Source: Siphonodentalium dalli
Taxonomy: Eukaryota > Mollusca > Scaphopoda > Gadilida > Siphonodentaliidae
DNA length: 64,000 nucleotides
Direction of reading: 5' to 3'
NCBI GenBank assembly: GCA_032622095.1
Contig: CP136067.1
Span: 178,160,556 to 178,224,555 of the forward strand
The translations under genes and the position numbers were made by a program. This document shows, in pieces, positions 20,064-45,908 of the stretch (the stretch's first letter is position 1; each line of letters begins with the position of its first letter). The notes below the pieces were generated by a model. The model searched no databases. It saw only the letters and a list, made by a program, of their open reading frames with translations, and was not told the origin of the DNA.

Positions 20064-20067
20064 TTAT

Positions 20068-20439
20068 CCCTTTACCCACCAAACCGGCCAAAACCGGCCA
20101 AATAAAGCTTCAACAGCCTAAAATATCTTCGGTCTGTCTCAATAGAACCATACAAATATGGATATCATTGGAACCGGCTCCTTGACCACATTGTGATAGT
20201 TACAGTTATGCCCTGTGCCAATGCATTCTCTTATATATGCGAGTCGACCATAGAGAATGCATTGGCCTAAAAAAAATCTTTTTTTAACACTTTTTACCAT
20301 TTTTTCTTACATTCTTTAACAATTTTATAATATTTAATGTTTAAGCCAATGCATTCTCTTATATATGCGAGGCGACCTATGGTCGACTCGCATATATAAG
20401 AGAATGCATTGGCACAGGGCCCTTCTGTTGGGTAAAGGG
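20068..20439. mobile_element. piggyBac-like MITE, copy 2, reverse orientation
   Basis: CCCTTTACCCACCAAACC at 20068 to TGTTGGGTAAAGGG at 20439, flanked by TTAT and TTAA. Same family as 17306-17698 but inverted. One internal hairpin is intact and the other has lost about half its sequence. Confidence 0.8.
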
Positions 20440-20548
20440 TTAATTACTCTGCCGGTCAAAATCCAATGAACCCAATCGATCTCCAAGTCATTTCTTATAA
20501 TCCTATAATCTTATAATCCTATACCAATAAATGTTAATAGAACATTAA

Positions 20549-21041
20549 AGGCACGTGAGGCCTTAGTTGTCGAAAATATTCATATTTGTTCCAATCACCG
20601 TAAACATAAAACATTAAAGCGCATACAGTTTCGTTCATATATACCATGACCATCGCGTAAACAGCATGTTATCCTAAAGATTTACTATATTTTACCTAAG
20701 CAAGAGTCTGTTTGTGTTACAGAAGACAGCACAATGCTGCTGGCTAATCACACACAAATGGCATAAACGCTCTTTATTCGTTCCATATCAGGAATTCACC
20801 AACAAAGAACGCTCTTTATGTTTACCATCATAATATAAACAAACACCAGAAAAGTAACTTTTTACGCTTTTGTTTACATAACAATGGTCAAATATATGAC
20901 AATAACATACTGTTTATGCAATATTTCTTATTTGTATACGGACAAAGTCTATCTACTTTTTGTTGTTCTTTCTGTTTGTGGCGGTTTTTGACGGGTGGAC
21001 ATATTTTCACAGGATACCCACCGCCAAGGCCAACCGTACCT
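20549..21041. mobile_element. 493-bp TTAA MITE (family K), copy A
   Basis: Flanked by TTAA (20545-20548, 21042-21045). Left terminus AGGCACGTGAGGCCTTAG; right terminus, read inward, AGGTACGGTTGGCCTTGG. Its length equals copy D (45412-45904). TTAAAGG termini are characteristic of T2/Kolobok-type MITEs. Conserved inner motifs include GCTCTTTAT and TGTGGCGGTTTTTGACGG. Non-coding. Confidence 0.85.
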
Positions 21042-22404
21042 TTAATACAATGAACAACTTTCCAAAACTATGAAAAGAATTGTAAGTAAGTCTCCAAATA
21101 GCACAAATGATCGGCTCGAAATGACGTACATGTATGTGGTTCGGCGCTTTTTATGCAGTCGAGGCTGCAGACATTGCTTGATAAACCTGGGAAACGTTCG
21201 GGTAAACCGAATGGCGATATTTGCTGGTTCGTACGGGCGCTAACTGAGTGAATGTAGAGGGTGTGCGATTATTGAAACAAATGCGTCATCCGTGGCGGCT
21301 TTGCCGATAGGTATATGATGCATGTAAGTGCAATTTCAAGTGTTCCCTATCATCGTACACTCTTAGATATAACAATCCGTATAGGTACTTCAGAGTACCT
21401 ATATGTCTCTTAGTTTCAAAGCAATATGTATCGAGAAGCATTAGGTGCTATATAATGATGCAATACATACGAGCATTAGGTACTAGTCAATCTCGAAACC
21501 AAATGGTGACGATACAATTCCACGAGAACATGGCGGCGTCCGGCCACTTGAGGCGATTGAGTTGTTTACAATATATACAAATGGAGAAGACACAAACTAA
21601 TAGCAGGCTTACACATTTTATGTTGGAATCGCCCTCGGCTTACATGTTATAGCGTGTGCCCAATTAGGTACAGTGTACTCTGACAGGAGGTATTTAAGAA
21701 TACGGAAGTGACCGTTGTCGGAAATATATCAACATATTGTTTTGTGTGAAATTGGACCTAACTTGCTTCTTAATAACCTGGAATATTGTTAGCACTGTCT
21801 GGATTATGTTTGAATACCAAAGGGACAAGATGTTATAACCTCCGAAAATTAACTGGGGCTAATCATTGATATTTTCCTATGCAAGAGTGCAGCAATTTCC
21901 AGTGATCTGAGACAGACCAAATTCAAACAGCAACAGGCTGAGTCAGTGAGTGCAGTGGGATTACACTTGACATGCACGACATTGTTGTGAATTTCAAAAG
22001 ACAGAAACTTAAGTTTCAAAAAATTATAAACCGCCCAATTACGAGACATAGAACAATTGTAGAAATTAGTTGGATTTATATATTCACATATCAATCCTGA
22101 TTAATTCGCAAGTTTGTTGGCTACATCGTACAATTACCTGTACAAAGGACTATGGATCATATTCTTCAATTTTCACCGAAACGTGATTTGAGAACCATCA
22201 CATATCGCACAGTTACGGAGTCTGCTATTCTTATGATCGAAACGCCGGTGACGCTGTGATATTGTTGTGATATATTTATGGAATGACGGATAATCTCGGA
22301 GACACGGATCCAATTATGGGACGCACAGTATCACTGAATCCGCCACAAGCTTTTATTAGAAGTTGACTTTGTTCACTCTAACGTACTACTGTACAGCTAT
22401 GTAT

Positions 22405-22512
22405 AGGATAATGGCTGAAACCTGCACATTATTTCAGGGAATGGATCGATCGAGGCCGTAGGCCGAGATCGTTCCATTCGCTAAAATAATGTACAGTTTG
22501 AAGCTATTATCT
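22405..22512. repeat. Foldback, ~50-bp imperfect arms
   Basis: Arms GATAATGGCT / TGCACATTATTT / GGAATGGATCGAT and their complements surround GGCCGTAGGCC. A related sequence with ATCCATTATCCTATA lies near 23300-23355. Confidence 0.65.
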
Positions 22513-22799
22513 GACTTAAAACATGGCTGAGTCCATATGGTTGATGCATCACCTATTATCAGCATGGATTAACCCGAAATTGGATCAAGACACCTGAGTT
22601 GTACCATGTGTTCGGCCTTATCCACTCGCTCATTGGCTGCACGGATGGCGTGATATCTTGACCCATTGTCAACTTAATGGACAGGCAGTTCCACATTGCG
22701 TCCCGACCGTTGAATGAACACGGCGTACCGACAATGAGCTACTTCTGCGATAGATTTACGAATATCATGGAGAGTTTTGCCCTTACATTTCGGCATTTG

Positions 22800-23095
22800 T
22801 ATTCCATTATTTATGCGGCATATTTCCAATTTTGCGGATAATTATACAGTGAATGGCAGATTGGTGCGAACGCTATGCATAATCGGAGATGTGTCGATCT
22901 TGTAGTTTGAGATCGCGCGTAATACTGAAGATCGAAGGACGACATATATATTACTACATTAGTTTTGGTTTTACCGTGAGGGGTGCTGCAACATGCCACC
23001 CGGGAACGTAATTAGATTCGAGAAAATTCAATGCTTATTCGTGAAACGACATGCCTGGAATTTGAAGTTATACCCCCAAGCTCACATCAACCCGA
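22800..23095. repeat. Dispersed repeat, copy 1 (pair with 31645-31975)
   Basis: About 300 bp shared in the same orientation with 31645-31975. Landmarks: ATTACTACATTAGTTTT, GTGAGGGGTG, CAACATGCCACCCGGGA, ATTAGATTCGAGAAA. Edges not defined. Confidence 0.65.
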
Positions 23096-24559
23096 GTGAC
23101 GAGGCTCTATATATCGATATGTCCCTGTCTGTCATGTTCTAGCAATCAATCTGAGCGATGTTATACTCGAATAGCGTTGTCTATAGATAGCTCCGTGCAT
23201 ACATTATGGTATCATACATGGAAGTCATATAAAATGAAATCGCCCACAGTAAAATAACCGTTGATTAAATTGGATACTGAGCGTCCGTTATTAAAATAAT
23301 GGATCGTTGTTTGTAAAATAATGTACGATCTCGACAATAATCATCCATTATCCTATAAACTGGACTCGATTAACAAAGGAGTGACGTCATAGCCATGTTT
23401 AAGCTCTAATTAATCGTCCCATTTAAAAAGGTTGTAGGGCATTAAGGACACCGGCTATACCATACCGTCGTTCAACCACGGTGGTTGACATGTGGCAACC
23501 GCAGGTAATCTTTCTACGGTACTAGTAATAATATTTTGCGCCCACTGTACTCCGCATTAATTTTTCACATGGCCACCTTACACCCAGTCCAGCTGTTCGT
23601 GAGCGCAATGCACCGTGTTAGCTATACACAAAACAATATTTCAATTAACAATTTGTTTACGGTTTAATCAACATTCGAAGTTGGTCACTGCATGACCGAC
23701 ATTTGCAACTGCGTCATCAATGCAGCGTCAAGCCATGCCAGAAATATACACTATGTGGTGGTTATAATGCTGAAGGTACGAAAGTCGGCCATGGTAGGAT
23801 TGATAATGGTTAATAGCATCAACGCAGTCGAGTAACGCGGTAATATCGGTGGTCAACGTCGTTAAGTGGGGGGGGGGGGTCACTTAGAGCTTAGCTGTAT
23901 ACATACATGTACATGTAGGCCATCACGATGTCCAGATGCATCATGTTCTTATCAAAACACGTGTGGCTATCATTCTGAACGATTCGGCCATTTCCGCTTT
24001 GCTAGGAAATAACCTCTTCCATAATTGGAAACCATATTCGCGAAATTCTACATTACATGGCTCCGGTGATCATGCAATGACATTGACTCGATGAGACGAG
24101 GACACATGGCTGCGATGGAGAATAATTTATTCACTGTAGCTGTACCAAACTGGATTATGTATTAAATACATTAAACTCTCTTTGTGTGAGCTTTGTTTGT
24201 TTGTTCATACACCGATACAGCACAGTGTAAGTGTATGATAAGCAAAACACTCAACACCGTGGCGATTTTTTTTGGGAGAGTGATTCCGGTGACCCATTCA
24301 ACGCCAAAATCTTGTGGCGAGGACTAGTGAGCGCTATAACAGTAATTTGCAAACAACTTGGTGCCAGTTTTAATTAACCAAAGTTCGTTAGTGTGGTCTC
24401 CCCATTGTTGAGTATGTTGCTTATTGCACGCTATTTACATGTACACAACAATTATATACTATTTACGCGATATTTATTATGGTATAAAGAATTAAAGGTC
24501 TGAGTGAACCACAGATTAACTATAATATTCTGATCGGGTTAAAACTCTAAATTTCTTGA

Positions 24560-25510
24560 CTATTGAAATTATGTTTGTTTGAATATTTGCTTATGCTTAA
24601 TTTGAATATTCTCAGTTTGCGATTTAACGTAAAGATGCTTGAGATTTATTGGGAAGGTTTGCGAGTTATCGTAAAGATGTTTGTGATTTATTGCAAAGTT
24701 GTTTTTGTGATTTATCGCAAAGGTTTGCTCCCTTTATCCCATATGCATGCTTACTGTGAAAGACCGATCGGTCTATTTTAGCCTGACCCGACAATTATAG
24801 ATTGATAGGTTGTTCACTCAGACCTGTTTAAGATGTCTGATTTATAATGTTTACTTTAATTACACACAAATTAAGAATTTACGACGATTATTTCAGACAA
24901 TAAGACAAATTTTACTCCACGTGCAGGCAACAGGTCAGGGAAATGCTGACCCAGATCTATTTAAGATGTCTGATTTTTAATGTTTGTGCAGAAGCCCATT
25001 AGCGCCAAAAAACCTTTGCGACAAATATCAAACATCTTTGCGATAAATCGCAAAGTATAGTCACCCAGTACGCAGTCTGAGAGTTATCGTAAAGATGTTT
25101 GAGATTATCGTAAAGGTTTGCTCCTCTTATCCCACATGCATGCTGGCTGTGAAAGACCGATCGGTCTATTTGAGCCCGACCGTGCTATTATAGATCGATT
25201 GGTGGTTTACACAGACCTGTTGAAGATGTCTGATTTATATTTATACGGTTCAAGCCCATTAGTGCCAACGCATGAAAATATATCTGCGATAAATCACAAA
25301 CCATTGCGATTAATCGCAAACCTTTGTGATCAATCGAAAACCTTTGCACTGAATCGCATATAATTATTGCAAGATAGTTTGCGATTCGCAAAGATTTGCG
25401 ATTTATCGCAAGGTAGTTTTTTATTTATCGGGTTATTTATAGATCGATTGGTGTTTCACCCAGACCTGTTTAAGATGTTTTATTTATAATGTTTGCTTTA
25501 ATATTATTGC
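24560..25510. repeat. ~394-bp repeat units rich in TTTGCGATAAATCGCAAA palindromes
   Basis: Two full units and a partial third. Each carries several TTTGCGATTTATCGCAAA-like palindromes, then GAAAGACCGATCGGTCTATTT (24763, 25158), then CAGACCTGTTTAAGATG. The palindromes cluster at 24616-24735 and 25010-25425. No coding signal. Confidence 0.75.
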
Positions 25511-25804
25511 ACACAATATTAGACTAATTTAGACATTAAGACATTTTACTCTACATGCAGGGAACAGTTAAGTACGAAAACACGATCAAGGTTCTATACT
25601 AATAAAAGAAATATAATTCGGATTATTTCATTTTGCACTATGCCAGGGAGTCCATGTAATTGTTAACATGATCTCGAAGAACCTCGTCGTGGCTTTGTAC
25701 TTAATTCGATGTTTAAACGCCGTAACATCATTTGGAACCTAACAAGCCACCTTGTTAAATTTGCCGTCGGCCATTTTTCGTAATTACGAGTGCTCGGTAT
25801 CTGG

Positions 25805-26216
25805 GCAGATTCTCCACATAGTACCTATATATTTGGTTCTCTGGAGTACCAAATTGCTAGGTACTATGCATAGTACCTAAATATTTGGTACAATAGAGAA
25901 TTTGGTATTCCACACGGGACAAGTTCAGTACCTACGTAGGTACTCTGGAGTACCTATTGTTTTAAGAGTGTGTATAATGCCAGGATAGGTACTCCACATA
26001 ACCTAAATATAGGCACTCTTGAGAACCTAAATATTGGTACTACACAGAACCTATATACAGGTACTCCAGAGAACCTATATATAGATAATATAGAGTACCT
26101 GAATATTTGGTAGGTACTCTAGAGTACCAACAAATTATGTACTCCCCTGGTACAAAGCTCAGAACCTACGTAGGTACTCCAGAGTACCTATTGTTTTAAG
26201 AGTGTATTGTCAATGC
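25805..26216. repeat. GGTACT/AGTACC palindrome array, second locus
   Basis: Two tandem units of about 237 bp, each ending in ACGTAGGTACTC, a palindrome and TATTGTTTTAAGAGTGT. Related to the array at 5868-6127 and to a short copy at 21358-21410. Confidence 0.7.
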
Positions 26217-26820
26217 TATACTCTTAAAGGGTTGTTTTCCGATTTCAGAACTCCACAAAATCAAAAAACTTCTGTTGTAAGCGTTGTTTGTATATACGTG
26301 TGCTTGTTCGCGTTATTTGAGGGCGTTTTTTCCAATAACCATTCTATAACGACATACTTGTGGTCCGCCTGGTAACTATGTACAGTGTGATTGCATGCTC
26401 ATCTCAACGAATAATCTAGCAACTGAACGACAAGAAACGACCCATCAGACCCGGGTTGTCTAGACCGTCAATGTTTGGTTAAATCCAGTTTAAGGCGCCA
26501 CATTCGTGAATTTTCAAAAAAATATCAATTTAGAACTATCAATTTGAAGGTACAAAATATTTTCCCTGATAACCAATGTATGTTATAGAAATTTATTACA
26601 CTCCTATGCGCGATTTCCATTGAAAACGCTGTTAATTAAAATTGGTAATGTCACTAGTGAATTATGTCATTTCCCGTGACGTCATTGACGTTACGTCGCT
26701 TACTGATCTAGACTGAATTTTCTATGGTTGATCTTTATCCATATCGGGACTTTTAAGCATTCATTCTGTGTGTTTTAATCATATTTGGCGAACCAAATTG
26801 ATGCAGAAGTGTAATAAATA

Positions 26821-26979
26821 GAGTAATCAATTAGTTCCGAGAATTACGTTCAATAATTCACTCGAGGCGAGAGACGTTTGTGTAAGAAACTCGTGCGCTA
26901 ACGCGCACTCGTTTCTTACCGACGTCTCTCACCTCTCGTGAATTATTTAACGTAATTCTCGGAACCAATTGATTACTCT
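26821..26979. repeat. 159-bp near-perfect foldback
   Basis: Arms of about 77 bp (GAGTAATCAATTAGTTCCGAG and onward, including AAGAAACTCGTGCGC) meet at a 4-bp loop TAAC. It lies in a larger interval starting TTAAAGGGTTGTTTTCC (26223) that may be a TTAA MITE, but the right end is not convincing. Confidence 0.75.
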
Positions 26980-27763
26980 CTATATAACAACAACTCTTTA
27001 CCCTCGCAATATGAGAGATATTTTTGAATTATCAGAAAGCCGTTTAAAAAGAAAAGACACATTTGTTCATTTAGGTCGATAGACAGTTTAACAGGAAATA
27101 TTTTCAAAGAACACACTGGGTTATTATATCTAGACTATGAACACAACTAGGGTATGCGCTCAGTCTAGTGAGTCTACCATCTGAAATCATGACTGTCTGC
27201 AAGAAAGCAAATAAAACATTTATCATTTCATATTTCATACCCGATGAAAACATAGTCCTGAAAATAGCTGAATTTTCGTGTCATACCTGTTGATCAATGC
27301 AAATTTCGGCTGAGTTATGGGTCATGTGTTCATAACCAAGTTAAAGCTGACCACGATATTTATCCCTACTTGAGTGGAACACAATGCATATCGACATTTG
27401 TTTTCATTGGGCCGGAATATTTGTGACATCTTTATACTTCATATGACCACAAGTATATCATCTGCGTTCACATTGGCTGGAACATTATTTTGGCCAAAGT
27501 ATTGGCCAGCCAAAGTATTGGCCATTTCTGATTTCTTGATTTGCCATTTTTTAGGAAACTTAGCGAGAAAACCAAAAACAAATAAAATACAAGGATGCAT
27601 ATAAAAACATTACTGATACATTTCGAGTTTGACAAAAGTTATAAAGGAAATGTGCACAGTAACGTATGTCAACATAAATGCGCACTGATTTACATGCATT
27701 GTCTTGTTGTGAAACAACAAAGCAGTAACGTATTGTTACTTTATTATGATTTCATTGAAACAG

Positions 27764-27949
27764 ATATGGAGGTGGATTCTCGCTATACATTCAACTGTGA
27801 GTGGAATATCCTCTATCGAATTGGTACGGATGACGGAGGAACTTGGATGGATCATCAGGAAATCTGCCGGTCCGAAGGTGGTCACCTCATCACGCTCACG
27901 ACACGGGAAATGTATGATTGGCTTCAGATTGTCATCGCGTCATCACCAG
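27764..27949 (+). CDS. Apple/PAN-C-type lectin gene, exon 2 (N-terminal half of the lectin domain)
   Basis: The acceptor (T-rich, AACAG) ends at 27763 and the exon is 186 nt, phase 1 at both ends. It closes at CCAG|GTCAGT. It encodes YTFNCEWNILYRI followed by TWMDHQEICRSEGGHLITL and EMYDWLQIVIAS. That is strand 1, helix 1 with the conserved W...C...GG.L pattern, and helix 2 of a C-type lectin-like domain. The GT donor falls between helix 2 and the long loop region. The reading frame is open upstream of the acceptor too, but that extension has no lectin features. Confidence 0.8.
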
Positions 27950-28622
27950 GTCAGTCATCAGTCACCATAAAGGGACGCGGTCCGGTTTGACGCCAATTTT
28001 ATACAATTTCCTAAGCTAATTTTAAGCTTACCATTCAAAACAATAACTGAAATCAAAATGATTCGTATGCTACAGGCATGGCCAAAATCCACAAATCATT
28101 CACGAGTATGATACATTGAAAACGATAATAAAAGTGACATAACGGTCTTATCACCTGCCGCCTTTGGGCGATAGAAGCATGGTCCATGACACAACTTCAA
28201 ATTAATTATTATTAAAATTCGTTATTTGGAAAGTCGATAACTGGCCATCAAAGGCTCATATTTTTGGGTTAATGTGTACGATCAAATTATTCTCTAATAT
28301 TGAAAACGTGCAAATTATGTTTTATGGCGTCACATCTGACAGGACTTCCTTACAAAGCTTATCGAAAGTTGTAACTGGTTCTAGCGTATACGACTCTTTC
28401 TATGCCGTTTTAAATGAGCGCGAAAGTGTTGTTATTGTGTTAAGCATGTAATTTTATACTTACTGTGAGAATCTGTGAGATTCCAGATCATATCTCATTG
28501 CTATGCGCATTGTTCTTGTTGATGACGAAACAGCTTACATGTACATGTATTGTCAGGCGGAATCCAATCTCATTAAAATCGACCGAAAATTACAAACACA
28601 GCTTCGTGATTTGTTTTATTAA

Positions 28623-28787
28623 AAGGGGGCTTTACACTAAATCTGGTCATTTATGGGACCATCTCCTTATATACTCATAATAATATATGCAACAAATGAA
28701 TGAATTTGAGCCATGGATTAGTGCAAAATGCACTCATGTGCTCCGTGAACGATGCAAACAACATGTTAATTATAATGGAGTTTATGA
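28623..28787. mobile_element. Half-copy of the 6612-6941 foldback MITE
   Basis: Begins after TTAA (28619-28622) with AAGGGGGCTTTACACTAAATC and follows the left half of the 6.6-kb element (GGACCATCTCC, AATGAATTTGAGCCATGG). It stops at about the hairpin centre and the other arm is missing. It is followed directly by the dispersed repeat at 28797. Confidence 0.75.
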
Positions 28788-28796
28788 CTCGAGTCA

Positions 28797-29020
28797 TGTC
28801 TCCTAGATTATGCATAACAAACTACCAAGGAAACCTCTATTAGAGAAATAGTTCGCTTCTTGCAATCTCCCACGTTAACAAACATCTTCATGGTACTTAT
28901 GCACCCCACATAATATATGTTGTAGTCAGTAGAGGTGTCCTGTTAATTTGCATACCAGGGGGTACAATATATCTATCACATTGACGCGCTCACGCTCCAG
29001 TAATAGAGTTACTGTTCTTA
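28797..29020. repeat. Dispersed repeat, copy 2 (pair with 14170-14400)
   Basis: Same order of landmarks as copy 1, ending AATAGAGTTACTGTTCTT. Confidence 0.65.
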
Positions 29021-31188
29021 TGGAAGCAGCCAGGGACCATAAAAACGTTTTTAAACGGCTCATTTATCGATGTTTGGTCGATCCTGCATAGAAAGGGGAA
29101 GCATCTTAACGAATTCAAACATGAGTTCAGCGTATTCGGAAAGGGGTACAATCAAACAACGCAATACAAGTTTCAGTGTGCTTCTCATGTGAAACTAGCG
29201 CTTTGCTACTTTTAAATCTGCTGGATCGAAGATGCACATGACATCAGTACATGAGTCGAAAAATGACATTTCGTGCGAAACATGCAGCAGGTCTGTTAGT
29301 AGTATAAACAATTATTTTGGCGGAACACACACAAGGAATACACATGGAATCGAGTTTCATATGCGATCGATGCAGTAAACAATATAAATCGAGCCTCAAT
29401 TGTGCACAAGAACGTTTCCAAACATTGACAGAGTGTCCCGCATGCATAATTGTATATGTAACTATGTATGCTATAGCGCATGCGTGTCATGCGATACACT
29501 GTTTTGTTTATTTACAATGAATTCATTTCCGTTGTGCCATGATACCAGTCCATCCTAATTGGGGGAAGTTCAGTGGTTCTACTTCCAAGCTTCCAAGCAT
29601 GATAGTAGATGTTTGGAATATTGCAGATAAAGCTACTTTTTTGTATTTTTGCTTAAGATGTAAGTTATTCTGGGCTCCAGGATAATATTTATGAAAATTA
29701 TTTTACTTCTTATTAGGAGTATAGTGTTTAAAATGCTTTTTGAAACTAGAAGTGCAACATGTCTTGGTATATTGAATTGTTTTCGATCCATTTATTTCAT
29801 TAAATTTTATATTTAGAGGAACAACAATATCTTGTTCACTATTTCCCAATAAGAAAATAACATATTTATATATAAGACTATTTTATATGTTACATTTGGT
29901 TTGCATCATTTTTCAACAGAAAAAAGGCCAAAATTTAATAAATCGGATGTTTGTCGTCGTTGTAATTGGAATACTAAATACAAACTAAACCACATGGCCA
30001 AAACAATGAGGACCATTTTCTGGAAATACAATTCAAACTTGTTCCAAGACTGCCATATTCTGCTTTTGTTACAGCAATCTCCAACAACATATGTTCTTAC
30101 TCTGCATGATGGCCGTGACTTTGCGAACTGATTCCCTATTCTGTATTCGAAATAAATTCGAGAATTGTTCGTTTCGCTTAATTTGACCTCATACCAGGTG
30201 TCGTTTCGATAGGATAACTTGAATTGGAGTTAAGTGCAGACAAGGAATCGGACGCCCCCATGAACGTCATACGGACGGACGGACGGACGGACGCAGATAA
30301 TTACAACAGTCTTCCGACCATTTTGGGGGACAATAAATAAACATGAAAGTGAGGTGTGTATCACTAATACATGTGTTTTTGCATTTTCTCGAGCTCTCCT
30401 ATGCAAGACAATTTTTATTTAAAACTAAACATCCACCTGTTCTTTTCATCAATATATAATGCAGATGTTGAAGATGTGCTCTGGCTAAATACTTGTATAT
30501 AACACCAAGACATCCTTCTTCGCATCACAATTTATTTTGCGTCTATAAAACCACTGTTTGCACGTGGTTACTAACCAGATGTTCTGTTGTATGAAGTCAT
30601 AATGGGTCAAAACTAAGATTGACCTCGAACATTAGTTAATGGGATGTATGTAATCAATAATGATCATTGTAATGTTTGGCGTTTCGGGGAAACATGTTTC
30701 ATAGCCATCGTCATATGGGATAGCCGGTGTTAAATTTCACAGAGGACTCAAATGAGCTGGAAATCAACAGAATGACAAAATCGTCACCATAATGATGTCT
30801 AAAGACATGACTATCATTTTAAGACGATTATTTGCCTACAATTGGCAGATATTGTTTTCGGCTTGCAATATGCCGACAGTAACAAAACATGCGAACTGCA
30901 ATTTGCACGTGATGTTGCAATTCGCCGTACACCAAATAGTTAAGTCTTTCTGCAATAATTTTAACAAACAGCTGAAAAACTCATGATTGGTGCCATATAC
31001 GTCATTGTGGACGGGACGTACGTCAAGTGTTTAGCAAAATTTGTACATACAGACCTTTAAATTATAAGTTTTCGGTTTTGATCAGACCGTGTTGCTGACG
31101 ATCCTTGGAATTTAACATAATAATCGTGATTTATCAGGACGTAATTTATGTCCATAATGTATAGATAGTAGATTTTAGAAGTAAATTA

Positions 31189-31577
31189 GAGACCTTTCGC
31201 AAAATCACGATTACGATTACGGATATGGACAATATAGCCTGCCATTATGAGGCCAAAAGTTCTATATTTACGTACGGGGCTTCTCATGTGAGACGAAATA
31301 TACCCCACGCAGTTACATTATGTGCAGATGTGTCAAATATATGTGCCATCGGTCCTGCTTGGGGTCTAACATTATCCGTGTGCTGTATTACATGCGGATA
31401 AGAACATGGGATCGGAAAGAGACACCCATTACTTTTTCCATCAAATATATGTATAACTGAATATAGTGGGGCATGTGCCGTCTCGCCAATTAACCATATT
31501 ATGTAATTTGTGGTGGTGTCCATCTTACTAGGATATCTCATATCCGTAATCATAAACGTTATTTTGTGAAAGGTCTC
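31189..31577. mobile_element. 389-bp MITE with ~40-bp inverted ends and TA target
   Basis: Termini GAGACCTTTCGCAAAATCAC and, read inward from the right, GAGACCTTTCACAAAATAAC, continuing through GATTACGGATATG. Flanked by TA on both sides (31187-31188, 31578-31579). This resembles Tc1/mariner-type targeting. No transposase inside. Confidence 0.75.
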
Positions 31578-31975: not shown

Positions 31976-31978
31976 CCA

Positions 31979-33499: not shown

Positions 33500-33887
33500 T
33501 GTTTGTTTCCAAGATATAATTGTTGATCGCAAAGAAACACTCCGGTATGGTGATCAAATACAAATGGAGAATAATCTTGTTCAAAGTATTATTTTTTTTA
33601 CAAATAGTATATTCAAATTCACTATACACACATCGTCATTCTTATATAGAAAGTATAGACTCTCGATGGCGAAATCGTTTTCGCTAGTTTATCGCCGATA
33701 GATACGTCCCAAATCGAGTAGTAAATATTTACAATTGAGCGTAGTTCTGACGATGTTTTCTATGCAGTGGTACGATCGATTTGCATACATTTGTCGGCGA
33801 TGTTAGTGTAATGTTACATTCCTCCAGTTAACATAGCGCCTGGGTACTTATCAGTTTCACGCACCCGAACAAGTACATAATATGTCT
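33500..33887 (-). repeat. AGACATA repeat family, inverted copy
   Basis: Read on the minus strand it begins AGACATATTATGTACTTGTTCGGGTGCGTGAAACTGATAAG-like sequence (in pieces) immediately after TTGA (33891-33888), which is shared with the neighbouring MITE. It is homologous to 35175-35560, 50226-50600 and 59304-59590. The far end is not defined. Confidence 0.6.
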
Positions 33888-33891
33888 TCAA

Positions 33892-34308
33892 AGCCACATG
33901 GCGGTTTGCGCTCCAAAATACACATAATATTATTCGCGTTTGAATTTTTCTCAGTATCGATACATAGGTCGATAAATACCTGAACCGCCTTTCTACGAGC
34001 ATTATGTAACCCAAAAAGACTCATTGAAGTAATGAAAAAAAAACAACTATACGGTGTTTGGGTCCCAGACACAAAACAGCCATTTGTGCGACATGAGACA
34101 TAAAGAGCGTTCCGTGGTAGTCTATTCCTGATATGGTAGCAATATAAAGGGCGTTTGTCTGACTTATGGCAAAAAAGTTTAAAATGGCTGTGTTTTCAGA
34201 GCATATGAAGCCGGCATATCAATAGTTCGTTTATGTATCGGCTTATCGAATCCGTCGCTCCAAATTACGTAGGAAATAAAATTGTAGGTTCGAATGAGCC
34301 ATGTCCGT
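33892..34308 (-). mobile_element. TTAA-flanked MITE, ACGGACATGGC family, copy 2
   Basis: On the minus strand it begins after TTAA (34312-34309) with ACGGACATGGCTCATTCGAA and ends GCCATGTGGCT at 33892, next to TTGA. Inner landmarks (TTGCGCTCC complement, ATGCTCGTAGAAAGG) match copy 1. Confidence 0.7.
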
Positions 34309-34604
34309 TTAATTGTGGAAATATAATGGGGGAATATATAGACGTATGTATGGCCCATATTGGGATAACTTATACGAAGTTACTCTGTCATATATAATAT
34401 GTAATATATAATATATAATACTATAAATGTATATAGGTGCCGTGTATATAGCTCTACCGGTCTGTTTTCACGCGTCCTGAAATAAGCATCACTATGTAAG
34501 TATTGTTTGGGATCGCATCTCTTTGTCCTTGCACTACTCGTATATAAAGCAACAAACACGACATCACGGGAATATTAAGGACACGCCTGAGGTTAGTGCG
34601 CCTG

Positions 34605-34707: not shown

Positions 34708-34907
34708 CCCGGCCATCTTATCAGGAATGTTTCTTTATTAACGAATTTGTATAGAAACTTCTTCACAAACATTTTATTTCTTTTTTAGTTCAGTTTCTCT
34801 GTATCCCCAAATTGACAGGCGACACATTGCATAATCGAAGTTCCAAATGACTGTACATCACAATATTCACCATTTGGAAACTTCAATCTGAGTCTATTTC
34901 TCCCATA

Positions 34908-35033
34908 GCAGATGAGGTCCCCAGATGGTGAATTTGGTGATGCTAGCCCGCTATGCGGGATAGCATCACTAAATTCACCCTCTGGAGACCTCATTCTGCG
35001 AAGGACAGGCACACTAACCCCAGCCTTGATTAC
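34908..35033. mobile_element. CAAGCC-family foldback, right side complete
   Basis: Hairpin core around CTAGCCCGCTATGCGGGATAG, with the right terminus running to AGCCTTGA at about 35033. The left terminus is replaced by unrelated sequence. Confidence 0.65.
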
Positions 35034-35174
35034 AGACACTCATTATATGATCGTGTGCCAATCCGGATTGATGATCATTAAAGGAGCTTTATATCTCATT
35101 GGAAACACTTTATGCAACGGCATCATTGTCCTATAAATTCTCTCATCGAAGACACGTTTACTTTATTGTTTTAA

Positions 35175-35560
35175 AGACATAGTATGTACTTATTCTGGTG
35201 CGTGAAACTAATAAGTTGGAGGAATGTAGCATTCTAGTAAAATCGTCGAAAATTTCTAACAAATCGACCTTACCACTTCATAGAAACCATCGTCTGAACT
35301 ACGCACAATTGTAAACATTTACTTCTCGATTCGGGACGCAACTATCTGCGATAAACTAACGAAAACTATTTCGCCATCGAGAGTCACTGTATTTAATTAA
35401 TATATAAGAATTACGGTGCTTGTTGTCAACTTGGATATCATATTTATAAAATTTACTAATTTGAGCAGTATTATTCTCCAATTCTAATTCTGCCGGAGTG
35501 TTTCACATCACTTTCAATATAGCACAGGAAACATCTTGCAATATACAAATTTCACTTGAA
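35175..35560 (+). repeat. AGACATA repeat family, copy 2
   Basis: Preceded by TTAA (35171-35174), begins AGACATAGTATGTACTTATTC. Inner landmarks are GGAGGAATGTA and TCTCGATTCGGGACGCAACT. It is in inverted orientation to 33500-33887, so the two form a 1.3-kb-spaced inverted pair. Confidence 0.6.
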
Positions 35561-35773
35561 TAGTTTGAAGACATTCTCAAGTAAAAATGGTACGATGTTC
35601 TAAATTATTAACATGTTCTGTCCCAGTTCCAATGGATAATTATCTGACTCAATTTATTATTTTATACAGTCATCTAGATAAATACAAACACTCAGGGAAG
35701 AGATATACCATCTTTGGCTTGAATTAAATTTTAGCAAAACATACTTCGCCGGAAAGGCACTCTGTTCAGTTAA

Positions 35774-36155
35774 ACGAACATGGCTCATTCGAACCCCCGA
35801 ATTGTGTCTACGTATTAATATATCGGCATCATATGCTCGGAAAAAACTTGCCAATGTCACAGCCGGTTTCCAGCCGTTTTCAATTTTTCATCAGAAGTCA
35901 GACACATGCTCTTTATTTCTACCATATCAGGAATATACTAACACGAAACACTCTTTTCTGTTCCATGTCGTGCAAACGGCTTTTGGAGGGGGGGTGGGGG
36001 GGGGGGGGGGGCAAAAAACCATGTTCATACATGTAGTTGTATTTTTTATTACCTCAATGCGTCTTTTTGTGTTACAGAATGGCCGTAGTAAGATCGTTCA
36101 GATATGTATCGACCTATTTCGACACATGGACAAATTCAAAAGTGAATAATAGTAT
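35774..36155 (+). mobile_element. ACGGACATGGC-family MITE, copy 3, right end missing
   Basis: Preceded by TTAA (35770-35773). Matches copy 1 through TTCATCAGAAGTCAGAC, AGGAATATACTAACACG and ATGCGTCTTTTTG. Includes a long poly-G expansion (35988-36010). Confidence 0.65.
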
Positions 36156-36289
36156 GTGTCAGAATTGTTCCGCATGATGCGCGATGATTGGTGTCGGTTG
36201 GAATTTAAAATGATCTCTTATTTGTACATCTTAATCGACAATATGGTCGTTGGAATTCATTTATAATTGTAACATCAATACTAAATGTC

Positions 36290-36480
36290 GATATTGTGAA
36301 CCTATATACAGCTTACTTCGAAAGGAGGGAAGATGGAAATGAAATTTCGACGAGACCTATTTCGGGGTGGTTTCAAAATTCCCGGTTACAGAACAACTTA
36401 AATTTCGGTTACCTGAAGATATTTTGTCTACTCTATGCAGATGACATCGTACTTTTTAGTTCAACTTTACTTTGTAAAAG
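36290..36480 (+). pseudogene. LINE reverse-transcriptase fragment with YADD
   Basis: A short plus-strand frame encodes GYLKIFCLLYADDIVLFSST with the catalytic YADD at 36434-36445. Upstream residues do not extend into recognisable palm sequence, and downstream the tandem array begins. The segment is too short to be functional. Confidence 0.65.
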
Positions 36481-36489
36481 GGTCGAACC

Positions 36490-37935
36490 TTTGATCGGAT
36501 CATTATGAAATGTGTCATAGCTGTTGACATTGACATTTAGATGAGAATGAGTCATTTTGGGGTCATTCGGAAAAAAATATATAGCCGCCAGTGGCCATCT
36601 TGGATTTCAAAATTCAATTCATTAGCACGGGCTACAGGTCGTATTGTTCGCCTGATCATCACGGTATTTGTCATGGATGTTAATATTGCCATGCAGATGG
36701 GAATGAGCAATTTTGGGGTCGTTCGGCCAAAAAACATGGCCGCTGGCAGCCATCTTGGATTTTACTCTTTGCATGACTAAATCCTTTGGCACACCTACAG
36801 GTCGTACCTTTGGTCGGATCATCATGAAATTTGTCATGGCTGTTAACATTGACATTTAGATTGGAACGAGTAATTTTGGGTCATTCGGCATAAAAACATG
36901 GCCGCCAGTGGACATCTTGGATTTCAAAATTCAATCCATTAGCACGGGCAACAGGCCGGAGTGTTCGTCCGATCATCATAAAATTTGTTGTGGCCGTTAA
37001 TATGGACATGTAGATGGGATTGAGTCATTTCGGGGTCATTCGGCCGTAAAACATGGCAGCCGGCAGCCATCTTGGATTTTACTCTTTGTATGACTAAATC
37101 CTATGACACAGGCTACAGGTCGTACCTTTTGTCGGATTATCATGAAATTTGTAATGGATGTTAATATTGACATGCAGATGGGAACGAGTCGTTTTGGGGT
37201 CATTCGGCCGTAAAACATGGCCGCCGGCAGCCATCTTGGATTTTACTCTGCATGACTAAATCCTTTGGCACGACTACAGGTCATGCCTTTGGTCGGATCA
37301 TCGTGAAATTTGTCATGGCTGTTAACACTGACCTTTAAATGCGAACGAGTCATTTTGGGCTCATTCGGCATTTCAAAATTCAATCATTAGCACGGTCTAC
37401 AGGCCGGAGTATTCGTCTGTTGATCATAAAATTTGTCGTGGACGTTAATATGGGCATGTAGATGGGAACGAGTCATTTCGGGGTCATTCGGCCATAAAAC
37501 ATGGCAACCGGCAGCCATCTTGGATTTTGCTCTTTGTATGACTAAATTTTATGACACAGGCTACAGATTGTACCTTTGGTCGGATCATCATGCAATTTTT
37601 CATGGATGTTAATATTGACATGTAGATGGGAACGAGTCATTTTGGGGTCATTCGGCCATAAAACATGGCCGCCAGCAACCATCTTGGATTTTACTCTGCA
37701 TGACTAAATCCTTTGGCACGACTACAGGTCATACCTTTGGTCGGATCATCGTGAAATTTGTCATGGCTGTTAACACTGACATGTAGATGGGAAGTTGGGA
37801 ACGAGTCACTTTGAGCTCATTCGGCCATAAAACATGTCCTCTGGCAGCTGTCTTGGATTGTACTCTTTGCATGACTAAATCCTTGGGCAACACTACAGTC
37901 TACTTCCCTCATCCGATCATCACCAAACTTCACAA
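36490..37935. repeat. Tandem array, ~150-165-bp units of two alternating types
   Basis: At least eight units share GGAACGAGTCATTTTGGGGTC, ATTCGGCC, AAAACATGGC and CAGCCATCTTGGATTT. Type 1 continues CAAAATTCAATTCATTAGCA; type 2 continues TACTCTTTGCATGACTAAAT. A fragment in reverse orientation occurs at 39215-39310. No coding potential. Confidence 0.85.
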
Positions 37936-38062
37936 TATGATTACGTCAGTGCGTATGAACAACCCAACACACATCCATATATAAACTGATAAATGCATGT
38001 TTCATGGGAGTGCCTAAACATTTAAGAATGGAGTAATCTTGTGACAAACACGTCCTTGTTAA

Positions 38063-38543
38063 AGGTACGGTTGGCCTTGGTGGTGGGTATCCTGTGAAAA
38101 TATTTCCACCCGTCAAAAACCGCCACAAACAGAAAGAACAACAAAATGTAGACAGACTTTGTCCGTATACAAATAATAAATATCGCATAAACAGTATGTT
38201 ATTGTCATATCTTTGACCATTGTTATGTAAACAAAAGCATAAAAAGTTACTTTTCTGGTGTTTGTTTATATTATGATGGTAAACATAAAGAGCGTTCTTT
38301 GTTGGTGAATTCCTGATATGGAGCGAATAAAGAGCGTTTATGCCATTTGTGTGTGATTAGCCAGCAGCATCGTGCTGTCTTCTGTAACAAAATCAGGTTC
38401 TTGCTTAGGTAAAATATAGTAAATCTTTATGATAACATGGTCATGGTATATATGAACGAAACTGTATGCGTTTTAATGTTTTTATATTTATGGTGATTGG
38501 AACAAATATGAATATTTTCGACAACTAAGGCCTCACGTCCTTG
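38063..38543. mobile_element. TTAA MITE family K, copy B
   Basis: TTAA at 38059-38062, left terminus AGGTACGGTTGGCCTTGG. The right end ...CTAAGGCCTCACGT is followed by CCTTGTTAA instead of GCCTTTAA. ACGTCCTTGTTAA occurs on both sides (38050-38062 and 38535-38547), suggesting conversion or recombination at the right boundary, where the 36-bp array starts. Confidence 0.75.
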
Positions 38544-38752
38544 TTAATTGTAATTGTGGTGCCTCTACCTGATCTTGTTAATTGTAATTTTGGTGCCTCT
38601 ACCTGATCCTTGTTAATTGTAATTGTGGTGCCTCTACCTGATCCTTGTTAATTGTAATTTTGGTGCCTCTACCTGATCCTTGTTAATTGTAATTGTGGTG
38701 CCTCTACCTGATCTTGTTAATTGTAATTGTGGTGCCTCTACCTGATCTGACG
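38538..38752. repeat. 36-bp tandem repeat, six units
   Basis: Units of CTTGTTAATTGTAATTGTGG followed by TGCCTCTACCTGATC, with TTGTGG and TTTTGG variants alternating. It begins exactly at the altered right end of MITE copy B. Confidence 0.85.
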
Positions 38753-38985
38753 GTGCTTTGGCGACTTTGCCGAAAATAATGATATTCCTCATAGCACGGA
38801 GATGCCTGTCTATATAGCACTTTGGACAACACAATTATAATCCTCACACCAAGCAGATGCTTGTCTATTTACATAATTATACAAACTTATTTTCATTAAA
38901 AACAATATTCACGGGCTGAGGCCAACCTTGATCTCTTACATAAGTTACAACGGAATTATGGTGACAGCATTAATTATCTCTTCTC

Positions 38986-39110
38986 ACCAGGGGGGGGTGA
39001 AAAAAAAAATTCCGGCACGTATGCCGGGGTGGGTGGGTGGTCAAAGCCACCAACAAGCAATTTTTTCCGCAACTAAAAAAAAAAATTCCTGTTTGTTTTT
39101 TAGTGTTTTG
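38986..39110. repeat. G-run/A-run repeat, arm 1 of an inverted pair
   Basis: Contains AGGGGGGGGTGAAAAAAAAA and CGGCACGTATGCC. Reverse-complement similarity to 39360-39535 (GGCACGTATGGC next to a C-run). Confidence 0.5.
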
Positions 39111-39359
39111 GCAATGAGTTGGGCTTCAAACCGACTTTGAATGAGAGAAATAATGTAATTCCAACTGTAAACTGACTGCAGGCAGTTATCGTGTTGTATT
39201 TTGTTGCAAATTTTGAAATCCAAGATGGCCGCTGGCAGCCATGTTTTTTTGGCCGAATGACCTCAAAATGACTCATTCCTATTTACATGTCCATGTTAAC
39301 ATCCATGATAAATAGTATGCACAGAAATTCATATACAGCTGTTTACAGAGAATTTCCCC

Positions 39360-39535
39360 CCTCAAATCTCTGTTTTAGTGTTAAAAGGGGGGGTGGGTGT
39401 CAAAAAATGGTCGGAAAAAACTGCCGAAAACGGAAAAAAATTTGGCGGTGGGGGTGGGTGGGTACAAAAAATGATCGAAAGGGAAAAAATGCCATACGTG
39501 CCTGAAATATTTTTCCGACCCCCCCCCTGTTCTCA
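39360..39535. repeat. G-run/A-run repeat, arm 2 of an inverted pair
   Basis: Low-complexity purine-rich sequence ending in CCGACCCCCCCCCTG. Open frames here are artefacts of composition. Confidence 0.5.
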
Positions 39536-42299
39536 CACGAACGTCCCCTATCCAGCCCAGAGATGTTAGCGATGTAAAACATATCTACTATATCTGTTCA
39601 AAATGGCTATCATCTCGTGAAGCTTGAATCTGGCCCAGCGACCAATTATCAAGGCAAAATTAATTAATTTAATTTTACAATGTTTTGGAAAAAAATATCT
39701 TATTGCATAAATTTACATATGATACTGAATACATTTTGATGATGTGAAAGACTGGGATTCGTTGTATACCGGTATTTCACATAGCCACATCTGATTTATT
39801 AATAGAAATGTATATTTGACTTTCAGCGAGTTACATGGGGTGGGGCACACTGACTCAATGAGACACAATTTCGAACCTATGGTAGGATCCAACTTCAGTT
39901 GATGACAGGCACTTCACAAAGGAATGATATAATTTGCCAAATGACTATTGTTTTTGGGCTGGAGTGAATAAATAATTTAGATAAAACAAACTAATGTCAT
40001 TGTGCAATAGTGGTAGCTTCGGGGCATTTCATATACGGTTACTACTCATTAATCAGGCGCGCATGATTTCACCTTAAAACGAAACCACGCCATGACCTAT
40101 TAAAGATAATACCATGTGCAACGATACTATATTTCGATAAATAACAGACTATCGAACCACAAAAAATACTAGATCATGTCTTGGATCTCTACACTAGCTA
40201 TGTCCATAGAGATTACTAGAGATCATATTACACCAATTGCATAGTACAAAACCTGGGAATTGTTTTTTATGTTCTGACCTGTTCTGACACCAAACTTTAT
40301 AAAATTGAGCAAACAAGCAGGGAATATATTTCCCTTTGTTGTTAATACTTGTTCCTCGATAAACTACTACCTGGACCAGTGCGTCTATAACCGAAAGGTT
40401 CCCGCACTGCAATATCTACAGATACAGTAGGGGTGGTCCCAGCTCGAGATTGCATGCTTGTTTGTGACTTTTGTGAGCTGATATCGTACTCACAGGTGCC
40501 TAATCATTGTGATGGTCAATAATAGTGAAAGTGGAGATTTAGGCTGAAATTAATAATAGTGATGGAAATTTAATTATATTTTAATTAGTTCTATATATGT
40601 CTCTGCCAAATAATTGAATGATCGTTGTGAATTTTATCCAAAATTAATAAGTATGCAGCACAATCTGACACTATTGTTAGGCATCTGAGAGTATATACAA
40701 ATTCAAATAATTGCCTGGGTGAAATTACATGAGTGTTAGGGACGCAAGGCAAAATCAACCACAAAGTCACTTAAATCTTGAGAGTGAGAACACAGTGTTA
40801 GAATCATGGAATATTTAATAGGTGAGAATGGTAAAACAAATTACCGTTAATGGTGTTATTAACGGTTAATGCATCATAATTGTTATGTTTAACTTGCTCT
40901 GTCCTTCACAGGAAACATAATTCATAGATGGAAAGTTGGAAGCATATCCTCTCACTAGTCACTACACTCTTCAGTATGCCGAGACCGATACATTGGCGAA
41001 TGTGAGATGTTCTTCTTTTCCTTCACTAACCAAGTTTATAATAATAATGGACTCACTCAATTAGTCATCAGTTCACTAGGCTACACATGTTTATCACGTT
41101 TGTGTGTAGACTAGTCTAGATGGCTAGAATTGTATTCTGACCCGAGTCACAGTGAGTGGGTGAGGCTGAGCCCGATGTCGTCAAGCCTGAAGTCATTGAA
41201 AACTAAATATACTAATATCACTAATGATTAATATTACTAGTAATAGTAATTTAGTAAAAGTAAATGAGTAAATCAGTCAGCTCTAAAGTAAAACTAAAAT
41301 GTCCATTTTCTGATTGCCTTCACCTGACAGTGTCAGCTATTAACAATTAAATTTGGAGAAGTTGAAGGCACAATTTGCTGCTTGCAACACCAACCAGTCC
41401 AGGTGAACACAAACTTAAAATTGAACAGAACGAGTCAAATAACCGTGGTGACCACAGACCAGGCCACTGACCATCATTTTGATTTTCATAATATTTCAGT
41501 CACAGATCCATCATTCAGTTTCTTTCCGACTGACTGAGTTTCACTTTCACTGTTCAACCAGAAGTCTGGAGGCTCCACACACAATGTATGCCCAATCGAT
41601 TGGCTAATACCAATAAAATTCACCACGAGAACAACAACGGAGAATTACGAATATGTACTCGCCGACAACTTCTTGCACCTGGGCGCAGCCATTTTGTAAC
41701 GAAAATTACGTCACCATTTGCAACGTTGCTATGGACCATGGGACGTAATTTCAAACTTAAACGGTTCGGAATCAGACGAGGTTTGCCGAATGCTATGCGC
41801 CTATGTCAACTAAATCCACATTAATCATTTAATTTTGAATAAGGGTGCTTGTGTTTTTCAAATTTAATAGTGTTGCTATTTGGGAGGCTGATCAAAGAAG
41901 TAAAATAAATTCGTTTTGTTAATTTGCCAATTCATTTTACAGGCTGGTTCGAGGTTATTCCAACATGGCGGCCACCATAGGGGCCCATAGATCCGAATCG
42001 CCCGGATGTAAAACAAAATTTGAGGCTGATGAAGTATAGAAATTAGTGACGTCATAACTATACTCACGTCGCTTACGAACTATAGAACAACCTTTGGGTT
42101 GTGATTAATCTTGATCTACTAGATGGAAGCTATCAAATGTTTTTGAATTATATTGGAAAACATAGCTGCCAACAACGATTTTGTTTTACTGTATATATAT
42201 TTCTTCATGTTGATAATCTATTATTACTTAGACCTTTCAACTTTCCGCATTCATAATTGGTCCACTGACTGTAACACATGAAATTATTCCCTTTCCAAG

Positions 42300-42690
42300 T
42301 TGAGCTACATCGTCATTGACACTTTCATTTACAAGGCGCATTCCATTTACAGCATATGCTCAATGATTATGCACAATACTGTAATTACTGGAAGTTATCG
42401 ATTAACAACACCAAAAGTAACGTCGTAGTATGTCGTAATAAATCATATCGAGAAGCAATACCAAATCATTTCACATTAAACAATAGGACTATTAATGTTG
42501 CTGACGAAATAAGTACCTCGGCGTTACGTTTTTACATGATGGTTCATTCCTTAACGAGAAGAAGCTCAGATGTGAGCAGGCTAAGAAGGCAATGTTTGGT
42601 CTATATATGCAAAATGCGAAAACGTACGTTATCGATCCCATCACATGCACTAGAACTTTACCGCACAACGGTTGAACCAATATTAGTATA
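42300..42690 (+). pseudogene. LINE reverse-transcriptase C-terminal fragment
   Basis: A frame starting near 42300 encodes LQHMLNDYAQYCNYWKLSINNTKSNVVV, then FTLNNRTINV, and after a frameshift a thumb-like segment ending ALELYRTTVEPIL. This is the region just after YADD in LINE RTs. Only the final ~45 bp is repeated at 44197, where the 1.55-kb duplication begins. It may be the continuation of the family seen at 36290, but the two are 6 kb apart. Confidence 0.65.
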
Positions 42691-45600
42691 GTTCCTCTTT
42701 AGTTCCTCGCTGTAATAGTAGGGTACGAATCTCCCCCATAATTAATCATTTTTCCAACTTCTCTGTTGAACATTAACAAACCGGCGCATGCGCTGTGATT
42801 ATATCGGCGGACCGATCTCCTTCCAATCACATATATGTCTCTTTGTTATAAAATATTTCCTACTGCACAGAACCACATACCTAAACAACCGTCAGTGCCA
42901 ATCAAGATATAACAACGACGAAATTCAACACATAGTATTCACTTGGCAGTCACTGCCTCTGCTTTTTCTCCGGAACCACTTCTGGGAGGGAATACTGACA
43001 CGTTATGGCATAACCGCTTGCTATTGATGAAATTCATCTGTTTGCTCTTTTTCTTGGCAGTACACTTCAAACACTCACCGATAAATTCTTGGACTGTCTG
43101 CAAGACATACATGTACTTCTGGACGCTGCCACATTTCTGATCATTGCTTGTAAACTCATTCGTACACGGCCTATGTTTTAATGCACCCTGGAAGCTCTGA
43201 TATCATCACGAACTTCGATGCGTTCTCCCTCTATAATAATCACACGTAACTGGTCAAGACGTTCCTATACTGTATATAACTACGACCACATGCGTGCGAC
43301 ATATGTAAATATGACATATGACAATACAGAACACTAATACAGAACACTAATATGTCGTATATCCACAAGCATGTGATATCATGACATAATGTATATACTA
43401 TATAGCGTTATTTTATTTATGTATTGTGTGTGCGTGCGTGATACGCGTCATCGCTTTTTCATAATCCTGTTGTTTCGTCACAAATTCTTAAATCGGAGAA
43501 TTGTATCGACTCATCTTTATTGAAATCAGATCACCTGATCGCGAATATCGATACCCTATTGTACAACGTCGGGACGTTTCAAGTTTTATCTGGGAGAGTT
43601 GTATGAAGACTATATGTTATCCCTGATATTGTATCATATCCAGGTTAAAGGGACATAAGGTATTCGGTCGAAGTGTGTAAATGTTACAAATAAAAAAGTG
43701 TGTAATTCTTTATACCATTAAGATGGACATGTGAATATGGAAAGACTTCGTTCTAATTTGTAATAATGATAACTCTCTAATGTTTCTATTATTAATGATA
43801 GGTTTACAAACTTTTACGAATTTTCACATTTCCCCACTGCGAGGGCCTTATGTCTCTTTAAAGGTACGGTTGACCTTGGCGGTGGGTATCCTGTGAAAAT
43901 ATTTCCACCCGTCAAAAACCGCCACAAACAGAAAGAACAACAAAATGTAGACAGACTTTGTCCGTATACAAATAAGAAATATCGCATAAACAGTATGTTA
44001 TTGTCATATATTTGACCATTGTTATGTAAATAAAAGCATAAAAAGTTACTTTTCTGTTGTTTGTTTATAGTATGATGGTAAACATAAAGAGCGTTCTTTG
44101 TTGGTGAATTCATGATATGGAACGAATAAAGAGCGTTTATGCCATTTGTGTGTGATTAGCCAGCAGCATTGTGCTGTCTTCTTTAACACAATCAGGCACT
44201 AGAACTTTACCGCACAACGGTTGAACCAATATTAGTATAGTTCCTCTTTAGTTCCTCGCTGTAATAGTAGGGTACGAATCTCCCCCATAATTAATCATTT
44301 TTCCAACTTCTCTGTTGAACATTAACAAACCGGCGCATGCGCTGTGATTATATCGGCGGACCGATCTCCTTCCAATCACATATATGTCTCTTTGTTATAA
44401 AATATTTCCTACTGCACAGAACCACATAAATAAACAACCGTCAGTGCCAATCAAGATATAACAACGACGAAATTCAACACATAGTATTCACTTGGCAGTC
44501 ACTGCCTCTGCTTTTTCTCCGGAACCACTTCTGGGAGGGAATACTGACACGTTATGGCATAACCGCTTGCTATTGATGAAATTCATCTGTTTGCTCTTTT
44601 TCTTGGCAGTACACTTCAAACACTCACCGATAAATTCTTGGACTGTCTGCAAGACATACATGTACTTCTGGACGCTGCCACATTTCTGATCATTGCTTGT
44701 AAACTCATTCGTACACGGCCTATGTTTTAATGCACCCTGGAAGCTCTGATATCATCACGAACTTCGATGCGTTCTCCCTCTATAATAATCACACGTAACT
44801 GGTCAAGACGTTCCTATACTGTATATAACTACGACCACATGCGTGCGACATATGTAAATATGACATATGACAATACAGAACACTAATACAGAACACTAAT
44901 ATGTCGTATATCCACACGCATGTGATATAATGACATAATGTATATACTATATAGCGTTATTTTATTTATTTATTGTGTGTGCGTGCGTGATACGCGTCAT
45001 TGATTTTTCATAATCCTGTTGTTTCGTCACAAATTCTTAAATCGGAGAATTGTATCGACTCATCTTTATTGAAATCAGATCACCTGATCGCGAATATCGA
45101 TACCCTATTGTACAACGTCGGGACGTTTCAAGTTTTATCTGGGAGAGTTGTATGAAGACTATATGTTATCCCTGATATTGTATCATATCCAGGTTAAAGG
45201 GACATAAGGTACTCGGTCGAAGTGTGTAAATGTTAAAAATAAAAAAGTGTGTAATTCTTTATACCATTAAGATGGACATGTGAATATGGAAAGACTTCGT
45301 TCTAATTTGTAAAAATGATAACTCTCTAATGTTTCTATTATTAATGATAGGTTTACAAACTTTTTTAGAATTTTCACATTTCCCCACTGCGAGGGCCTTA
45401 TGTCTCTTTAAAGGTACGGTTGACCTTGGCGGTGGGTATCCTGTGAAAATATTTCCACCCGTCAAAAACCGCCACAAACAGAAAGAACAACAAAATGTAG
45501 AGACTATTTCCGTATTCAAATAAGAAATATCGCATAAACAGTATGTTATTGTCATATATTTGACCATTGTTATGTAAACAAAAGCATAAAAAGTTACTTT

Positions 45601-45744
45601 TCTGTTGTTTGTTTATAGTATGATGGTAAACATAAAAAGCGTTCTTTGTTGGTGAATTCCTGATATGGAACGAATAAAGAGTGTTTATGCCATTTGTGTG
45701 TGATTAGCCAGCAGCATTGTGCTGTCTTCTGTAACACAATCAGG
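42648..45744. repeat. Recent 1.55-kb tandem duplication
   Basis: 42648-44196 and 44197-45744 align end to end with only scattered single-base differences, by eye roughly one per 100-150 bp. Each unit begins CACTAGAACTTTACCGCAC and ends inside a family-K MITE at CACAATCAGG. The MITE is therefore truncated in the first unit and complete only after the second. The duplication is younger than the MITE insertion. A collapsed-haplotype assembly artefact is an alternative. Confidence 0.9.
43862..44196. mobile_element. TTAA MITE family K, copy C, truncated by the duplication junction
   Basis: Preceded by TTAA (43858-43861), matches copy D for 335 bp, then stops at the duplication breakpoint. Confidence 0.85.
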
Positions 45745-45904
45745 CTCTTGCTTAGGTAAAATATAGTAAATCTTTATGATAACATGCTGTTTACGCGATG
45801 GTCATGGTATATATGAACGAAACTGTATGCGTTTTAATGTTTTTTCTGTTTACGGTGATTGGAACAAATATGAATATTTTCGACAACTAAGGCCTCACGT
45901 GCCT
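45412..45904. mobile_element. TTAA MITE family K, copy D, complete
   Basis: TTAA at 45408-45411 and 45905-45908; 493 bp; ends AGGTACGGTTGACCTTGG and CTAAGGCCTCACGTGCCT. Opposite orientation to copy A. Its right TTAA is the left TTAA of copy E. Confidence 0.88.
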
Positions 45905-45908
45905 TTAA

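Follow-up and report, generated by a model that had tools for sequence, protein, structure and literature searches.

Whether transposable elements that abut across a single 4-bp site record the landing of one copy at the edge of another is the question raised by a 64,000-nt stretch of Siphonodentalium dalli DNA (hereafter the window; assembly GCA_032622095.1, contig CP136067.1, positions 178,160,556–178,224,555, forward strand). This window carries miniature inverted-repeat transposable elements (MITEs) of families here called K (with subfamilies Ka and Kb), M, Q, S, Z and PB, and a sequence-only reading had picked out three places at which two of them adjoin across one TTAA-like site, proposing that the site left by one insertion becomes the landing pad of the next. 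Such sharing of a TTAA between neighbours is real, mostly ordinary and rare, and a clear surplus is found only for K next to K; we put the probability that serial insertion explains the elements sharing one TTAA at about 80%. Each family would consist of short elements that carry no gene themselves and integrate at TTAA, and a new copy would take the TTAA bordering an older copy as one available site, leaving a single TTAA between the two.

The letters of the window confirm all three junctions. At the first, the site TTAT (20064–20067) is common to an M element (19611–20067, plus strand; ends ACGGACATGGC and AGCCACATGGC), which has TTAA on its left side and this apparently decayed site on its right, and to the piggyBac-like MITE PB (CCCTTTACCC...GGGTAAAGGG; 20064–20443, plus strand), another copy of which lies at 17302–17702. 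At the second, a Q element (33534–33891, minus strand; end AGACATATTATG; outer end at 33534 not defined) runs up to TCAA (33888–33891), which it shares with a second M copy, 80.6% identical to the first (33888–34312, minus strand). At the third, TTAA 45905–45908 lies between two K elements of opposite orientation: D, a Ka copy of 493 bp without its TTAA (45408–45908, plus strand), and E, a Kb copy about 74% identical to Ka (45905–46406, minus strand in Ka orientation). The other border of D, overlooked in the sequence-only reading, is also shared: an S element (AGGGACATAAGG...CCTTATGTCTCT; 45194–45411, plus strand), with TTAA on each side, meets D at TTAA 45408–45411, so that S, D and E form a three-element chain with two shared TTAAs. 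A further S–K junction, at TTAA 43858–43861 (43645–44195, plus strand), is not independent, because it was copied by a 1.55-kb tandem duplication (42644–44200 and 44193–45748; 98.4% identity) with its breakpoint within a K element. In the pair that the same reading had placed at 47688 and 48131, the 6-bp gap was confirmed: the Z element (AGGCCCACTTAA ends; 47684–48120, plus strand) and a second Kb copy (48127–48660, minus strand in Ka orientation) have two separate TTAAs and share nothing.

Elsewhere, too, copies of K, M, Q and PB have ends that fall exactly at the 4 bp shared at the junctions. For K, 33 copies were fetched from the 39 best-matching ones outside the window (40 of 1408 candidates were scored); TTAA stands on both sides in 31, and in the other two the alignments were clipped by 1–2 bases, with TTAA just beyond. 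Left ends of M read TTAA followed by ACGGACATGG at 19615, 34308 and 51824, a further one at a fetched locus (L062) carries TTGA, and the right end, GGCT followed by TTAA, was seen in one solitary case (L038). Q ends as TTAA followed by AGACATA at 59304, at 50226 and in an inverted copy near 35171–35174, and PB as TTAA followed by CCCTTTACCC at three of its four element ends in the window, the fourth being the TTAT. Because these other copies of M, Q, PB and K end at TTAA, the TTAT at 20064–20067 and the TCAA at 33888–33891 are best read as decayed, that is mutated, TTAA. S is known from two copies only, both inside one duplication.

With 13–17 TTAA elements and 442 TTAA in the window, chance would give 0.35–0.62 shared junctions versus the four independent ones found (P 0.0005–0.004), and with a total of 25 elements, unrecognised older ones included, 1.36 (P 0.05). 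Genome-wide counts are the better test, because the window was chosen as striking; over the 2.2 billion bases of the genome they cover families K and PB, M having been read in the window and at two fetched loci, and Q, S and Z in the window. K ends were counted as matches to TTAAAGGYACG, and the expected number of K–K junctions as n_f × n_r/N, where N, the genome total of TTAA, is about 15.4 million when scaled from the 442 per 64 kb of the window, and 15.7 million by a second estimate from the flanks of the 33 K copies.

K-end matches numbered 19,738 and 19,392 on the two strands (1,639 and 1,441 for a reversed-motif control), and the pattern of two K ends at one TTAA occurs at 106 places versus 24.9 expected, or 21.1 after subtraction of the control. 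Of 20 matches sampled (every fifth of 100 listed, all within the initial 15 Mb of contig C1 and hence not drawn at random from the genome), BLAST identified 13 as K; if that share held genome-wide, the expectation would fall to 10.5. The first 50 listed of the 106 junctions were fetched and searched with BLAST, which placed K on both sides in 45, with one pair of loci being a duplication; the other five, for which BLAST did not place K on both sides, were left unclassified, although one of them (L018) has K on both sides by eye. Scaling leaves about 93 places, or about 76 if a near-identical share (4 of 22 pairs) is also removed, and thereby a surplus of 3.0–3.7 fold over 24.9, 3.6–4.4 fold over 21.1 and 7–9 fold over 10.5. 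After checks and end-match correction, K–K pairs at one site exceed expectation by 3 to 9 fold.

The genome-wide excess of shared junctions implied by the sequence-only reading thus holds for K beside K and fails for the other pairings counted. K–PB junctions number 173 versus 119 expected in the raw count, and about 112 once corrected for the presence of K at the junction in 13 of 20 fetched loci, versus 78–119 depending on the end-match correction, that is 0.9–1.45 fold. PB–PB pairs at one site fall below chance (32 versus 143 expected, ratio 0.22); avoidance of PB by PB was dropped as an explanation, since nearby PB pairs show the same deficit (6 versus 31 expected, ratio 0.20), and the PB count may be inflated by PB copies in long tandem arrays, as regular spacings in the match list indicate. 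At C1:735542–915516, for example, PB ends recur regularly, about 14.5 kb and 11.2 kb apart, which points to long tandem arrays with PB in them. The junctions M–PB, Q–M and S–D need no special attraction, PB being the one of these families counted genome-wide. Reuse of an earlier element's site remains the best reading of the shared junctions, given random orientation, independent divergence of most pairs, exact sharing of 4 bp and the K–K surplus, but it is not general to TTAA elements. The proposed growth of clusters by accretion shrinks to a minor process: K–K junctions take in 212 of 39,130 K-end matches (0.54%, or about 0.8% if 13 of 20 are true K), and therefore build no clusters on a large scale.

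The most serious alternative for the K surplus, to which we give somewhat less than an even chance, is that TTAA elements crowd into tolerant regions, where borders of resident copies are struck no more often than nearby TTAAs. The near-chance K–PB count and the equally low ratios of same-site and nearby PB pairs agree with it, and so does an excess, of at least 1.8 fold, of K pairs that occupy two separate TTAAs no more than 30 bp apart. Such pairs were found at 8 places versus 4.3 expected (95% range 0.8–3.6 fold), an expectation that assumes a share of 0.57 for CGTGCC-type ends, near the 59 of 100 ends seen in the 50 fetched junctions; the 8 were collapsed from 11 places (10 of them fetched), two of which overlapped in a minisatellite and one of which had a spacer identical to another's. 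This excess of nearby pairs grows if non-K end matches are removed, and among the 33 best-matching K copies none shares a TTAA with another recognised K (about 0.4–0.5 expected); these observations count against the serial-insertion account. The surplus of same-site over nearby-site pairs is 1.6–2.2 fold (P 0.02–0.09 according to which rows are dropped), from a small sample of 8 nearby pairs, and this ratio is independent of the true number of K ends.

Against regional crowding stands the TTAA inside K, which is used less often than the terminal ones. There is only one such site, at position 423 of Ka, present as 10,245 intact sites plus 11 carrying K-end matches (10,256 in all). Per site, terminal TTAAs are used 2.5 fold more often in the raw counts (106 versus 11), 4.1 fold in the checked ones (95 versus 6) and 8.1 or 6.6 fold in the independent ones (93 or 76 versus 3), with P ≤0.001 throughout; the 11 internal matches, all of them fetched, reduce to 6 real and 3 independent insertions, loci L086–L089 being one duplicated event. 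The three independent internal insertions are not below random expectation (6.5 expected, P 0.11). One fetched locus (L057) has a K copy sitting inside another K. Comparison with the internal site and across families marks the K self-surplus as specific to the K end, and the nearby-site control leaves room for clustering; the effects given by these controls are not of one size.

Terminal TTAAs are accordingly used by K beside K more often than at random, part of the excess being local K clustering. Attraction to resident K ends may account for the remainder (about 1.6–2.2 fold relative to nearby sites and 2.5–8 fold relative to the internal one), in which case the K transposition machinery would be drawn to them. 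We tentatively suggest, as a possibility rated slightly below that of regional crowding, that resident K ends serve as landing sites, either because transposase sits on the K end or because end plus TTAA make a ready-made target, and so seed K chains without a preference elsewhere and without effect on other TTAA families. In piggyBac, the hairpin TTAA of the excised element and the target TTAA take nearly the same shape, according to the portion of PMC7351741 drawn on here; by analogy, a resident end with its TTAA would be a plausible target for K. The counts, which have internal controls, show how often a TTAA element reuses a site next to a relative: seldom overall, at about the chance rate for K–PB, the one pairing of unrelated families examined, and several-fold above it for K–K. 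Should the self-preference stand up to local clustering as an explanation, K would allow end-directed targeting by a TTAA transposase to be put to the test.

A different origin for K–K pairs, in which a single K copy is duplicated in tandem or inverted order, as proposed for arrays of coral CMITEs, is improbable as a general account. The 45 classified junctions comprise 19 direct, 17 tail-to-tail and 9 head-to-head arrangements (26 inverted in all), and Ka–Ka pairs 16 direct and 19 inverted, so that the two orders are about equal. Neighbours are on average 0.959 identical over 22 full-length pairs (L031 omitted as a copy of L030), versus 0.952 for permuted pairs (P 0.001), a rise due to four reciprocal-best pairs of 0.99–1.00 identity (three direct, one inverted); the remaining 18 average 0.952, the same as permuted pairs. 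Being as unlike as unrelated copies, and randomly oriented, most pairs therefore come from separate insertions, and tandem duplication was rejected as the main cause on both orientation and identity. The four near-identical pairs speak the other way, so that some junctions are the product of duplication in place or of a short-range hop; the same mode could explain a row of three direct K copies (L004, 74–1560), the outer two of which are 99.6% identical and the middle one 94% identical to both. About four-fifths of K–K pairs look like separate insertions and about one-fifth like local copies. Movement of K–K dimers as a unit was also rejected, as none of the 22 full-length pairs has both partners more than 0.98 identical to those of a pair at a separate locus. 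Another fetched locus holds a mini-element of about 96 bp (L032, 569–664) that consists of two left ends of K placed back to back, with TTAA flanks and a K on either side.

Least probable of all is that the K end merely resembles K's preferred target, an extended palindrome around TTAA: the junction CCTTTAAAGG is indeed a palindrome, but K occupies non-K TTAAAGG sites at about the average rate (710 of about 491,000, or 0.145%, a figure that tandem arrays may dilute, versus 0.128% for an average TTAA), and 62 flanks of the best-matching K copies (of 66, four going unread by a script that requires intact end letters) have no preference matching the K end and none for T or CCT before TTAA, so that a match through the bases AGG and one through the flanks were both rejected. 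In one region, C1:445579–489347, successive TTAAAGG matches lie 926 and 427 bp apart by turns, which hints at a tandem array whose unit measures about 1.35 kb.

The MITE multimers of rice belong to superfamilies other than those of the families described here. Adjacent and nested MITEs are already in print, and we make no claim that the K self-surplus is new to the literature. In rice, 11% of MITEs are reported in multimers (Jiang and Wessler 2001, as cited in PMC10664404 and PMC5907723), with MITEs lying in or beside members of their own and of other families, as here; in those accounts, insertion into elements outnumbers insertion next to them, whereas K occurs at K ends more frequently than at the internal TTAA. 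Coral CMITEs are likewise short TTAA elements in arrays, but in the sections of PMC2872659 used their adjoining units resemble one another, as do the spacers, and slippage is put forward, whereas K neighbours are randomly ordered and mostly unlike. By the marks given there for piggyBac-like MITEs, a TTAA target site duplication (TSD) and a CC[C/T]T motif, PB is called piggyBac-like, with TTAA and CCCTTTACCC at three ends and TTAT at the fourth.

K, S and Z would fit the Kolobok-type non-autonomous elements in both TSD and ends: TTAA flanks K in the 33 copies read and S and Z in the window, and their AG...CT termini agree with the 5'-RR/YY-3' ends described in PMC9587614. Xenopus T2-MITEs of the Kolobok group share the TTAA target and AG termini, and S (AGGGA at one end) fits their AGGRR terminus, as stated in the consulted text of PMC6004289; unlike T2-MITEs, K ends in AGGYA and Z in AGGCC, and S fits at one end only. 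KolobokP solo LTDRs, as far as covered by the cited parts of PMC9587614, likewise measure about 450 bp per unit, have short terminal inverted repeats and RR..YY ends, are widespread in molluscs and form multimers, but their TSDs are mainly 3–5 bp long and show no strong target preference, and their multimers are joined by an internal region, whereas K copies sit at TTAA and abut directly; assignment of K to them was rejected on the TSD rule.

Elsewhere in the window, a solitary Ka element (20545–21045, minus strand) has TTAA on each side. An internal stretch of 54 bp is common to Ka and M, at 78% identity and in opposite orientation. Parts of K also recur in tandem: at C1:14801645–14804706 copies of the K-end motif follow one another along one strand about 196 bp apart, and at a further fetched locus (L140) the start of Kb recurs about 198 bp apart, suggesting a satellite built on the Kb end.

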